Part shown: piece after piece, positions 24,604-28,596 of the stretch
Numbering within the stretch: position 1 is the first letter of the stretch
How the letters are laid out: each line of letters opens with the position of its first letter
IMG/VR virus record: IMGVR_UViG_3300047673_000207
Location: 1-41,864 of that record
Reading direction: 5' to 3' (one strand)
Length of the DNA stretch: 41,864 bases
From: a virus
The notes under the pieces: generated by a model
What the model saw: the letters and a program-made list of their open reading frames with translations, nothing else
What the model was told of the DNA's origin: nothing
Databases searched by the model: none
Made by a program: the position numbers and the translations under genes

Positions 24604-24893
24604 TGGCCGACATCGACCCCGACGAGTTCGACTTCTCCGAGTTCGACTTCTCCTGCGAGCGCTCCATCGCGGCGCTCCGACAGGTCGCCGACCACAGACG
24701 CGCCGAGCTGCTCGCCCGCAACATCCACGCCAGCCTCCAGGGCGAGAACAAAGCCAACGCCCTCCTCGCCATCGTCCAAGTGCTCGGCGTCTGGCTCAGC
24801 AGCGAGCCACTCGAGCGACAGATCACCGGCCTCGCCGTCATCTCTCGCCTCATCACCCAGCAACTCCTCGGCGTTGATGACGATGCCGCTTGA
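24603..24893 (+). CDS. Small acidic hypothetical protein
   Basis: ATG 24603 overlaps the upstream stop (TGATG). The N-terminus is a highly acidic near-repeat (DPDEFDFSEFDFS), encoded by a short DNA repeat (GAGTTCGACTTCTC twice). The rest is helical (ALRQVADHRRAELLARNIHA ... LAVISRLITQQLLG). The acidic repeat might mimic DNA or bind a protein partner, but this is speculative. It overlaps the NusG-like gene by 17 bases. Confidence 0.55.
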   Translation: MADIDPDEFDFSEFDFSCERSIAALRQVADHRRAELLARNIHASLQGENKANALLAIVQVLGVWLSSEPLERQITGLAVISRLITQQLLGVDDDAA

Positions 24894-25455
24894 CGCATCC
24901 GTGACGACAGCCGTAGATACCGCCAGCCGCTCACAGCGCGTCGAGGAGCGGTGCGGTAGCCGTTGGGGCGTCGTGCATACCCACCCGCAGGCCGAGCGCT
25001 GGGCCGCACAGAACCTCCAGCGCCAGGGCTACGCAGCCTACCTGCCAACCCACACCGTCCGCATCCGCGACCGCACCATCCCGACACTCACCCGCCCCGT
25101 CGAGCGCCCGCTGTTCACCAGCTACCTGTTCGTGGCAGTGCCGCTGACCCTTTGGGGGCCGATCCGCCACACACTCGGCGTCCGCAGCCTGCTCATGAGC
25201 GGGGAAAAGCCGTATCTACTGCCAGAGGCCGTCTGGAACGCGCTACAGGCCGGTGAGGCGCTTCGCCGCGCCATTGCGCCACCCGGAGCCTCGTGGGCGC
25301 CTGGCACCCCTTGCAGCCCCGGGAACGGGGTGTTTACGGGCCACCCAGCCGTCGTCATCTCAGTCGACCGCGGAAAGGCCATCATCGCCATGCTGCTGTT
25401 CGGGGAACTGCGACAGGTCTCGGTCGATGTGAACAGCCTCGTGGCGCGGGAATGA
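24877..25455 (+). CDS. NusG/RfaH-like transcription antitermination factor
   Basis: ATG 24877 gives 192 residues (ATG 24883 and TTG 24874 are alternatives). Residues 29-125 are a NusG N-terminal domain: 'RWGVVHTHPQAERWAAQNLQ', 'RPLFTSYLFVAVPL', then 'IRHTLGVRSLLMSG' and 'LPEAVWNALQAGEAL'. Residues about 138-192 have a KOW-like end (GVFTGHPAVVISVDRGKAII, LFGELRQVSVDV). NusG paralogues such as RfaH bind elongating RNA polymerase and suppress termination. It lies at the border between early genes and the terminase, where lambdoid phages encode Q, so it probably turns on late transcription. Confidence 0.75.
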   Translation: MTMPLDASVTTAVDTASRSQRVEERCGSRWGVVHTHPQAERWAAQNLQRQGYAAYLPTHTVRIRDRTIPTLTRPVERPLFTSYLFVAVPLTLWGPIRHTLGVRSLLMSGEKPYLLPEAVWNALQAGEALRRAIAPPGASWAPGTPCSPGNGVFTGHPAVVISVDRGKAIIAMLLFGELRQVSVDVNSLVARE

Positions 25456-25836: not shown

Positions 25837-25869
25837 AGCCTCTGGCCAACGAACAAGGTGAGTGCTCGA

Positions 25870-26442
25870 ATGGTTGACAACATCATTGATCAGCAATCCG
25901 CCCACGCCAAGGATTTGGCGGAGAGACGCCGCGCTACAACGCAACGATACCGAGAGAAAAACCGCGAACAGATAAGAGCCCAATCGCGCCCTTACACTAA
26001 GGCATACCGGCTAGCTAATCTTGAAGCGGTTAAAGCCAAAAAACGGGCAAAATACGCCGCAGATGGCGAATACGACAGACGATACGCTAGAGAGTGGTAC
26101 GCACGAAACGCAGAGGCCGCAAAGGCAAAGCATGAGGCGTGGCTCGCGGCTAATCCAGGCAAGCGAGTAGAATACGAAACCCGCAGACGAGCCAGGAAAG
26201 CTGGTGCTGGTGGTGACCACACCGTCGATGATGTCCTGGCGATCGGCGAAGCGCAGGGGTGGAAGTGCCATTGGTGCAGCAAATCAGTACGGAAGCGCTA
26301 CCACATCGACCATATAATCCCGCTGTCCAAAGGCGGCGGAAATGGACCGCGCAACCTGTGCGTCACTTGCCAACCTTGTAACCAAAGCAAGCATGCCAAG
26401 GACCCGATTGATTGGGCGAGGCAGCTTGGAAGGCTCTTGTGA
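25870..26442 (+). CDS. HNH endonuclease next to large terminase
   Basis: ATG 25870 has AAGGTG upstream; GTG 25858 is an alternative. Residues 10-115 are a basic, helical, Arg/Lys/Ala-rich region that should bind DNA. Residues 131-175 are the HNH core: 'WKCHWC', 'YHIDHIIPLSKGGGNGPRNL' and 'CVTCQPCNQSK', with zinc-binding Cys pairs (C133/C136, C167/C170) and catalytic His. It ends 3 bases before terL. Phage HNH proteins beside terminases can assist packaging cleavage or act as homing nucleases. The first 350 bases are clearly lower in GC than neighbouring genes, suggesting separate acquisition. Confidence 0.8.
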   Translation: MVDNIIDQQSAHAKDLAERRRATTQRYREKNREQIRAQSRPYTKAYRLANLEAVKAKKRAKYAADGEYDRRYAREWYARNAEAAKAKHEAWLAANPGKRVEYETRRRARKAGAGGDHTVDDVLAIGEAQGWKCHWCSKSVRKRYHIDHIIPLSKGGGNGPRNLCVTCQPCNQSKHAKDPIDWARQLGRLL

Positions 26443-26445
26443 GAG

Positions 26446-28596
26446 ATGCCAGCGACAGCGCAACGTGTGAGCTTGAGCTACCGCCCGAGGCCGCAGTTCG
26501 TAGCCTTCCATAAGCGGAAGCAGCGCTGGGCATGCATAGTTGCTCATCGGCGGTGCGGCAAGACTATGGCGACCGTGATGGATCTGATTGATGCCGCGCT
26601 GCGGTGCGATAAGCCGGATGGTCGTTTCGCTTATGTCGCACCCACTTATGCGATGGCTAAAGATATTTCGTTCGGTTACCTGAAGCGCTTCACGACGGAC
26701 ATACCTGGGGTCGAACAGCGCGAGTCAGACCTGTCAGTGATCTTCCCTAATGGGGCTCGAGTGCGTTTGTATGGGGTCGAGAGCTACGATCGGTTGCGTG
26801 GTATATACCTCGATGGCTGCATCCTGGATGAAGCTGGCGATATGCCGCCTCAGGCGTGGCCCGAGGTTATTCGTCCGGCTCTTGCTGATCGTCAGGGATG
26901 GGCCGTGTTCATTGGAACCCCAAGGGGCAGGAACGAATTTCATCGCATTCACGAGCATGCGCAGCTCGCTCCCGACTGGTTCTCGCTGACGCTCCGGGCT
27001 GACCAAACTGGACTGCTGCCGCAGCAGGAACTGGACGACATCAGGAATATGCTGACGCCCGAAGCCTATGCGGCTGAAATGCTCTGTAGTTTCGACTCCG
27101 CAATCTTAGGGGCATACTTCGCTAAGGAGTTGGATGAAGCACAAGCGGCTGGTCGTATAACGTCAGTCCCTTATGATCCCATCCTCCCTGTGCATACTGC
27201 TTGGGACCTAGGTGTGTCTGACAGCACCGCCATCTGGTTCTTTCAGGTCTCCCGCGCCGAAGTTCGCGTCATCGACTACTACGAAGCATCCGGCTACGGC
27301 CTCCCACATTACGCTGCAGTGCTCACCTCGCGCGGCTACACCTACGGCACCGACTACCTGCCGCACGACGCACAGGCCCGACAACTCGGCACCGGCCGCT
27401 CGCTCTGGGAGACGCTGCACAGCCTCACCAATCGCATCCCGCGCGTGTTGGCACAGCAGAACCTGATGGACGGCATCAACGCCGCGCGCATCAGCATCGC
27501 CTCGTGCTGGTTCGATACATACAAGTGTCATGACGGCCTCGAGGCGCTGCGTGCCTATCGCGCCGACTACGACGACAAGCGCAAGGTGTTCACGGATCGT
27601 CCGCGGCACGACTGGGCCAGCCACGGATGCCTCACTGGCGATGCCATAGTTCTGACCGACCATGGGTTGCGGCGTATCGACCAGATGAAGGCCGGCGACC
27701 GTGTTTGGACACCGGCAGGATATGCCGTGGTCGAATGGGCTGGAGTGGTGAAGCGGGCAGCCGAACTCGTGCGGATTGAACTACCAGACGGGCGCAGGCT
27801 GACGTGTACGCCAGAGCATAAAATCGCGACAAATCGCGGTTTCGTTCATGCTGATGCTTTGCGATATCTGGACGTTGTGCTATCTGGTAACGAATGGCAA
27901 AGCTACCTGATAGGATTGTGTTCGAGGGTTGCGTCTACCGGCTATCGGGCAATTATTACCGCCGCCATGAGTGGGGAAAGCCAGGACCGTCCAACCTTCA
28001 TCGAGCGGTGTGGGAGCATCATAACGGCCCTGTGCCGGACGGCTGTGACATACATCATCGGGACGGCAACCCACTCAACAATGCTCCCGGCAACCTTGAA
28101 TGCGTCGATGCCTCTGAACACAAGCGACAGCACGCATTGGAGCGACGCGCCCGCGGAGAACTCCACGACCCATCTGACTTTTGCCGCGAGCAGGCTGCTG
28201 AGTGGCACGCCAGCCCCGATGGCATCGAATGGCATCGGCAACACGGCAAAGCGACATGGGACACGCGCAAGTGGGTTGCTGTTGTTTGCCGCCAGTGTGG
28301 TCAGAGCTTTGCTACGCCTTATCCCACGCGGGCGAAGTGGTGCCATATCAATTGTAAGATGGAAAACCTACGCCAGCGGCGCGGACGCCCAGTTGGTCTA
28401 CGACCTGACCGTAAAAGACCACGCCTGCTATCAGGCAAACGGGTTGCTGGTCAGTAACAGCGACGCGTTCCGCTACCTAGGCCTCGCCTGGCGGCAGATG
28501 CAGCCTGAGAAGCCGCCGAAGCCGCCAGAGGACTCGTGGGACCGGGCTTTCGCCCGCGCATCGCAGAGCACAGTCGAGAGTTGGCGCGTGGCATGA
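26446..28596 (+). CDS. terL: Terminase large subunit interrupted by an intein
   Basis: The continuous frame encodes 716 residues: 439 of terminase and a 277-residue intein at 395-671. Walker A is 'CIVAHRRCGKTMA' (33-40 core) and Walker B 'CILDEA' (125-130). The nuclease starts at 'HTAWDLGVSDST' with Asp254. The last nuclease motif, H-D-W-A-S-H-G / S-D-A-F-R-Y, is split exactly by the intein, so the protein can work only after splicing. It acts as the ATP-driven packaging motor and headful or site nuclease at the portal. GC content shifts visibly around 27240, with the 5' part poorer in GC, suggesting a recombination joint. Confidence 0.9.
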   Translation: MPATAQRVSLSYRPRPQFVAFHKRKQRWACIVAHRRCGKTMATVMDLIDAALRCDKPDGRFAYVAPTYAMAKDISFGYLKRFTTDIPGVEQRESDLSVIFPNGARVRLYGVESYDRLRGIYLDGCILDEAGDMPPQAWPEVIRPALADRQGWAVFIGTPRGRNEFHRIHEHAQLAPDWFSLTLRADQTGLLPQQELDDIRNMLTPEAYAAEMLCSFDSAILGAYFAKELDEAQAAGRITSVPYDPILPVHTAWDLGVSDSTAIWFFQVSRAEVRVIDYYEASGYGLPHYAAVLTSRGYTYGTDYLPHDAQARQLGTGRSLWETLHSLTNRIPRVLAQQNLMDGINAARISIASCWFDTYKCHDGLEALRAYRADYDDKRKVFTDRPRHDWASHGCLTGDAIVLTDHGLRRIDQMKAGDRVWTPAGYAVVEWAGVVKRAAELVRIELPDGRRLTCTPEHKIATNRGFVHADALRYLDVVLSGNEWQSYLIGLCSRVASTGYRAIITAAMSGESQDRPTFIERCGSIITALCRTAVTYIIGTATHSTMLPATLNASMPLNTSDSTHWSDAPAENSTTHLTFAASRLLSGTPAPMASNGIGNTAKRHGTRASGLLLFAASVVRALLRLIPRGRSGAISIVRWKTYASGADAQLVYDLTVKDHACYQANGLLVSNSDAFRYLGLAWRQMQPEKPPKPPEDSWDRAFARASQSTVESWRVA
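27628..28458 (+). other. Intein within the large terminase (residues 395-671)
   Basis: The first residue is Cys395, starting block A 'CLTGDAIVLTDHGLRRIDQM' followed by 'KAGDRVWT'. Block B is 'RLTCTPEHKIATNRGFVHAD' with the TxxH motif. Blocks F and G are 'VYDLTVKDHACYQANGLLVS' then N671, followed by extein Ser672. The penultimate residue is Ser instead of the usual His, a known but less common variant. The in-frame middle (about residues 485-645) is Thr/Ser/Ala-rich and has no LAGLIDADG or HNH motif. Instead an HNH gene lies there in another frame. Confidence 0.88.
27894..28457 (+). CDS. HNH homing endonuclease nested out of frame inside the terL intein
   Basis: The 187 residues are read in the -1 frame relative to terL. 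The HNH core is 'NLHRAVWEHHNGPVPDG', 'CDIHHRDGNPLNNAPGNLEC' and 'VDASEHKRQH' (catalytic His54/His55, Asn62/63). A C-terminal zinc knuckle follows ('VCRQCGQSF', 'AKWCHINCK'; C132, C135, C150, C154). An in-frame TAA lies just before the start (TAACGAATG), so it is an independent gene, not a fusion. It has no strong ribosome-binding site. The stop (28455-28457) overlaps the last intein codon. It is expected to cut intein-free terL alleles and spread the intein. Confidence 0.8.
   Translation: MAKLPDRIVFEGCVYRLSGNYYRRHEWGKPGPSNLHRAVWEHHNGPVPDGCDIHHRDGNPLNNAPGNLECVDASEHKRQHALERRARGELHDPSDFCREQAAEWHASPDGIEWHRQHGKATWDTRKWVAVVCRQCGQSFATPYPTRAKWCHINCKMENLRQRRGRPVGLRPDRKRPRLLSGKRVAGQ

Follow-up and report, generated by a model that had tools for sequence, protein, structure and literature searches.

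The large terminase subunit gene (terL) of the window, i.e. the whole 41,864-nucleotide stretch of viral DNA analysed here, very probably carries a mobile intein in the TerL nuclease motif H-x-x-D-A-x-R-Y, within which a separately translated HNH endonuclease ORF is nested out of frame. The frame offset of this element, its anatomy, conservation, constraint, and distribution have been computed; its splicing, the translation of the HNH ORF by internal initiation, and the cleavage of DNA are inferred, without experiment. It probably also represents a class of phage-terminase mobile inteins, large, old, and so far overlooked, that possess a separate, internally initiated endonuclease gene in the -1 frame, a frame that would be favoured because it is nearly stop-free under HNH/zinc-knuckle proteins.

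In the proposed mechanism, ribosomes reading the terL frame would synthesize a precursor harboring a "mini-intein" of ~90 N-terminal and 35 C-terminal Hint residues joined by a disordered linker, the latter being nothing more than the HNH gene read in its +1 frame. TerL would then be restored when the intein splices out. A second set of ribosomes would start at the internal ATG and produce the HNH enzyme, which is expected to nick or cut intein-free terL alleles during coinfection, and recombination would then copy in the 831-bp element, often together with its flanks.

Anatomy of the terL locus

terL is an uninterrupted ORF of 716 codons at 26446-28596 (+ strand, as for all features below), inside which both the intein and the -1-frame HNH ORF are located. 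The N-extein (26446..27627) comprises the ATPase domain together with the greater part of the nuclease domain, as assigned by Pfam (Terminase_6N/6C) and PHROG (terminase large subunit), and ends with ...RHDWASHG. It is followed by the intein (27628..28458), 277 residues or 831 bp long in the terL frame, and by the C-extein (28459..28596), which starts with SDAFRYLGLAW..., has Ser as its +1 residue, and is delineated by an ungapped alignment with relatives whose site is empty.

In the terL frame, the intein displays Cys1, block B (TPEHKI, 27808-27825), blocks F and G (VYDLTVKDHACYQANGLLVSN, 28396..28458), a terminal Asn, and the +1 Ser. Its N-terminal splicing region, with blocks A and B (27628..27890), lies outside the HNH ORF. 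Cys1, T61, H64, and N277 are invariant among 39 relatives. The penultimate residue, in block G, is a Ser in the window and a His in many relatives, and the criterion of the usual His is thus not met; active inteins differ at this position, where His is usual rather than strictly defining. Pfam Intein_splicing matches the terL frame with an E-value of 1.3e-7, below the curated cut-off of the model, and the Intein_splicing/Hint matches, also below curated cut-offs, are broken in mid-intein. The AlphaFold2 (AF2) model has a Hint fold, with pLDDT values of 89-97 for residues 1-80, ~90 for residues 250-277, and <50 for residues 115-213. It matches the gp41-1 and DnaB (MchDnaB) inteins in the PDB, gp41-1 being the closest solved splicing domain. 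By these motifs and this predicted fold, the terL insert has the features of an intein, and protein splicing is inferred. Pfam detects no endonuclease domain in the terL frame, the middle of the intein being predicted as disordered, and a bifunctional intein with an in-frame endonuclease is rejected on these grounds. A fractured gene or split intein is rejected for the window as well, the host gene and the intein being unsplit in a single 716-codon ORF.

The HNH ORF (27894..28457), of 187 residues and in the -1 frame relative to terL, matches PF13392 (HNH_3, E 2e-16). Residues H54, H55, N62, N63, and H76, as well as four Cys, are invariant in 24 family members; the HH of the HNH motif is encoded at 28053-28058 and the Cys4 zinc knuckle at 28287-28355. 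The best sequence match is I-HmuI (PDB ID: 1u3e), with ~20% identity, and I-HmuI is also the only PDB match of the structure model. AlphaFold2 predicts residues 1-165 mostly with ~90 pLDDT, and the last 14 residues with <50. In the HNH-frame protein of another locus (L030:3820-4437), the zinc-knuckle region is seemingly duplicated and the middle helices are lost.

A TAA (27888..27890) closes the HNH frame towards its 5' side. At the 3' side, the two frames end in a shared TAAC (28455..28458), the HNH stop TAA (28455-28457) overlapping the AAC codon (28456-28458) of the terminal intein Asn. Between these limits, the dual-frame stretch (27894..28395) holds the HNH body, the intein frame there being a poorly conserved, stop-free linker modelled with low confidence. 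Over blocks F and G, the HNH frame encodes only its C-terminal tail, which is predicted as disordered. The first-pass annotation, made from the sequence alone, had described a terL frame open over 716 codons, splicing blocks flanking a middle part devoid of in-frame endonuclease motif, a full HNH nuclease with core and zinc knuckle in the -1 frame, and an HNH stop overlapping the final Asn codon; all of these hold against the ORF coordinates, motifs, and Pfam and AF2 results. It had also placed the HNH ATG directly after the TAA: the HNH ORF does possess its own ATG, but one codon (CGA) separates it from the stop.

An indel introduced by sequencing or assembly can be ruled out as the source of the offset. 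The 831 bp are found identically (0 differences) in two further metagenome contigs. One of these has 130 differences from the window, confined to the part 5' of 26996, and is therefore a distinct haplotype. Furthermore, the same offset is kept in relatives with 73% intein and 89% HNH identity.

Signals for an independent translation start are seen at the family level. Pairing of the anti-SD with the 17 nt located 5' of the HNH starts has a median of -6.3 kcal/mol, versus a control-ATG median of -2.9 kcal/mol (P 1e-7), and clear SDs precede the HNH starts of L020, L019, L124, and L030. In the window itself, the SD of the HNH start is weak (-2.9 kcal/mol) and equals that of an average control ATG. 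Stops close upstream of the HNH start are found in other nested families too, and the start codon is never followed by an A (0/55 families), as an A there would give TGA in the intein frame.

Stop codons and constraint in the two frames

The number of intein-frame stops to be expected was obtained by keeping the HNH protein fixed and redrawing its codons from its own usage. The window harbors none, versus 2.9 expected, and 56 families together harbor none, versus ~179 expected (Fisher P ~1e-35). Seven free-standing HNH relatives possess 1-12 stops, close to expectation. This P-value overstates the result, since the nested status itself required an open covering frame, a partial ascertainment that is limited, although not removed, by an unselected set gathered with the HNH alone and by an intein-anchored set. 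The open intein frame over the HNH is not due to chance. As for the direction of the offset, the favoured frame would hold ~179 stops by expectation and the other frame ~964; the -1 offset is favoured because its intrinsic stops are few, each requiring a preceding Leu, Val, Ile, or Met codon. A single locus with the opposite offset (L007:2-3259) is nevertheless free of stops, versus 9.4 expected, and its nesting apparently has a separate origin.

Substitutions reveal which of the two frames is conserved, and where. Among the five sequences of the window family, the HNH body shows 421/309/796 differences at positions 1/2/3 of the HNH codons, and substitutions that are silent for the HNH and change the intein are realized at 0.57 of their opportunities, versus 0.22 for the reverse. 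The pattern of the HNH body is repeated in a second family (7 sequences). The HNH frame alone is thus conserved there, the intein frame being a stop-free and disordered filler. In the last 63 nt, encoding blocks F and G, the constraint flips to the intein frame: differences at the HNH codon positions number 53/22/8, and HNH-silent, intein-changing substitutions reach 0.05 of their opportunities, versus 0.27 for the reverse. The non-overlapped N-terminal part of the intein differs mostly at position 3 of its own codons (279/196/538). AF2 confidence mirrors this constraint, with a disordered middle in the Hint model and a disordered tail in the HNH model. From this hand-over, it follows that the essential part of each protein overlaps the dispensable part of the other, a natural design for overlapping genes. 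The earlier proposal that ~560 bases encode two proteins is correct as to two full nested ORFs, with the refinement that these bases are not equally constrained for both, the functions lying side by side. Constraint on one frame only had been named as grounds for refutation; locally this is what is observed, but it does not hold for the element as a whole.

Distribution and mobility

A search with the HNH protein only yielded 29 viral loci, in 28 of which the HNH is nested in a long terminase ORF; 27 share the offset of the window, L007 has the other offset, and L027 is free-standing. Later scans of viral contigs, bacterial and archaeal genomes, and phage genomes brought the classified loci to 135, grouped in 81 HNH clusters at 60% identity, of which 60 are nested. 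The offset is -1 in 59 of these 60 families, L007 being the exception. The full HNH alignment lacks a conserved stretch of 7-10 columns, and a narrower alignment was used in the profile scans. Of the host ORFs, ten were compared with Pfam and seven with PHROGs; they are terminase large subunits, except for L029, for which Pfam returns intein matches only. Weak matches in genome contigs (L141-L151) were discarded as short HNH matches that are not nested, and a blastn search of terL against phage genomes returned weak terL matches only, without an intein.

The carriers have very different TerLs and include prophage contigs and cultured phages, namely Tetrasphaera phage TJE1, Rhodobacteraceae phage LS06-2018-MD07, and Acinetobacter phage Highwayman. 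The records of these three phages annotate terL only, without the HNH, indicating that annotation pipelines miss the nested gene. One nested HNH intein (L138:2074-4269) is found in a Terminase_3 gene of a 2.3-Mb contig labelled Thermoplasmatales archaeon, possibly in an archaeal provirus.

When the splicing domain (A6) is used as query, 24 TerL-intein loci with a nested HNH and one HNH-deleted locus (L035/L243) are retrieved. The remaining matches are more distant inteins, many of which are interrupted by a free-standing gene, and a few of which have a same-frame HNH. Two related inteins (L248:2762-5851 and L272:3002-5848) show this classical architecture, their in-frame HNH domain being matched with an E-value of about 1e-8. 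A split form also occurs (L140:294-2616), in which terL and the N-terminal intein part run into a stop, followed by the HNH ORF and by a C-terminal terL fragment in another frame; it may represent a step on the way to fractured genes. The insertion site of the inteins lies in the conserved H-x-x-(S/C)D-A-x-R-Y region of TerL, which corresponds to motif III of its nuclease domain. At this insertion motif, the out-of-frame HNH layout is typical of TerL inteins and not a peculiarity of the window phage. The database search proposed in the first-pass annotation, for terL inteins with the HNH in another frame, has thus met with 60 HNH families (<60% identity). The idea that the splicing element and the mobility gene are uncoupled yet physically nested is supported, their activities remaining inferred; a decayed one-off is excluded by the recurrence of the nesting in 60 or more HNH families.

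Relatives with ~80% identical TerL have empty sites (HDWASHG|ADAFRYLGLAW) without any gap. Between the window and L005, identity amounts to 40% for the extein, 69% for the intein splicing domain, and 77% for the HNH. L005 and L006 have near-identical terL flanks, with most blocks 93-100% identical at the nucleotide level, and inteins sharing 51-85% by block, the shift falling at the edges of the element. The same flanks with different inteins indicate that the two elements reached this site independently. The compared carriers have AGC (Ser) as their +1 codon and close empty relatives mostly have Ala, a pattern that fits co-conversion but is only suggestive, since two loci (L048 and L063) weaken it by combining an empty site with Ser. 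In L035, the intein frame is kept and the HNH core is deleted. On the HNH tree, ~9 switches between the nested and the free-standing state, and no fewer than 4, have to be assumed. Free-standing HNH relatives adjoin terL or lie directly 3' of it, and in Acinetobacter phages the nested HNH of Highwayman is 50% identical to the free-standing one of BP10. A disjunct distribution with transfer between divergent hosts, a criterion for homing endonucleases, is met. Empty sites, horizontal transfer, and the HNH-deleted derivative support mobility, DNA cleavage being inferred.

Alternative explanations and known systems

The relation between nested and free-standing HNH genes bears on a different scenario, in which a free-standing gene has dropped into terL inteins on repeated occasions, with a convergent and neutral nesting and without any co-travelling element. 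The close kin beside or directly 3' of terL, the number of nested/free changes in the tree, and the other offset of L007 speak for it. A correlation of intein with HNH distances (Mantel r 0.59) speaks against it, but that of extein with HNH distances is equally high (r 0.61). As the Mantel tests do not separate these associations, family-wide co-travel rests on individual cases, window/L005 and L005/L006; in the window clade, the HNH and the intein have moved jointly into divergent TerLs, and repeated drop-in is considered unlikely. Programmed -1 ribosomal frameshifting, fusing the N-terminal half of the intein to an HNH devoid of its own start, would also account for a conserved -1 offset in 59 of 60 families, but stop avoidance alone explains this offset. 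Besides, the TAA one codon before the window HNH ATG, the close upstream stops of other families, the SD-like sequences at the HNH starts, and the absence of any terL-frame X XXY YYZ heptamer between 27628 and 28100 make it very improbable.

The weak SD of the window and the existence of the L035 derivative would be compatible with a relic, i.e. an HNH that was once in frame or free-standing, has ceased to be made as a protein, and keeps its frame by chance. Purifying selection on the HNH frame, the catalytic and zinc residues invariant in 24 diverse members, and recent horizontal spread leave very little room for it. HNH enzymes of the I-HmuI type usually belong to group I introns, and the insert has therefore also been considered as a group I or II intron that carries an HNH ORF and through which the terL frame would be read incidentally. 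This reading is rejected as practically untenable: no ribozyme core is matched in Rfam even at E<=1, every intein motif is in frame, a Hint fold is predicted, and the insert is stop-free throughout. The reading retained is thus that of a mobile intein with a separately translated, nested HNH.

Intein endonucleases are described as fusions with the intein (PMC3943268), a textbook rule that the present reading, if true, contradicts. The ShiLan domain, the closest published case of an HNH lying out of frame, is devoid of an intein: ShiLan and a second phage DNA methylase insertion contain an out-of-frame HNH explicitly without intein motifs (Arsenault, Gosselin and Gogarten 2025, PMC11855218). 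As in the window, the insertion keeps the host frame open, and the published coordinates imply a -1 offset and a TAAC end (PMC11855218). In contrast, neither splicing motifs nor a Hint fold can be detected in ShiLan, which is believed to remain in the methylase (PMC11855218), whereas the window element possesses a full splicing domain around the HNH, resides in terL, and has a layout common to dozens of families. These unexplained elements thereby gain a splicing-competent counterpart, splicing being inferred. Mycobacteriophage TerL inteins, which are experimentally active (Kelley et al. 2016, PMC5050341), also combine a homing endonuclease in a TerL intein with a disjunct distribution. Their endonuclease, however, forms part of the intein polypeptide as one of its domains and is not encoded in another frame, and they sit in the ATPase domain instead of the nuclease-domain motif occupied in the window (PMC5050341).

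I-HmuI, although the best sequence and fold match of the window HNH, is a group I intron enzyme, whereas the latter is encoded within an intein. Fractured genes with gp41-1-type split inteins, in which a free-standing endonuclease lies between the halves, have reportedly been described by Dassa et al. in 2009. They share with the window the closest solved splicing domain and an endonuclease separate from the intein polypeptide; in the window, however, the intein is contiguous, the endonuclease gene overlaps it, and the host gene is unsplit. The literature searched, in which subscription journals and preprints were not covered, yielded no account of any intein whose endonuclease lies out of frame, and the widespread class of nested-HNH inteins looks undescribed. 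An endonuclease located inside an intein and yet made as its own protein would separate splicing from mobility in expression and regulation, and nesting lets the endonuclease be lost without harm to TerL, as in L035. The cultured carrier phages make the nested-intein idea testable.

Other genes of the window deserve mention. Directly 5' of terL, a second and unrelated HNH endonuclease gene (25858-26442, +) matches PF14279/PF01844, and a NusG-like transcription factor (24874-25455, +; PF02357) is encoded just 5' of the packaging genes. A phage protein (37051-37833, +) harbors at its C-terminus a PEP-CTERM sorting motif (PF07589, E 4e-7), which is unusual for a phage.
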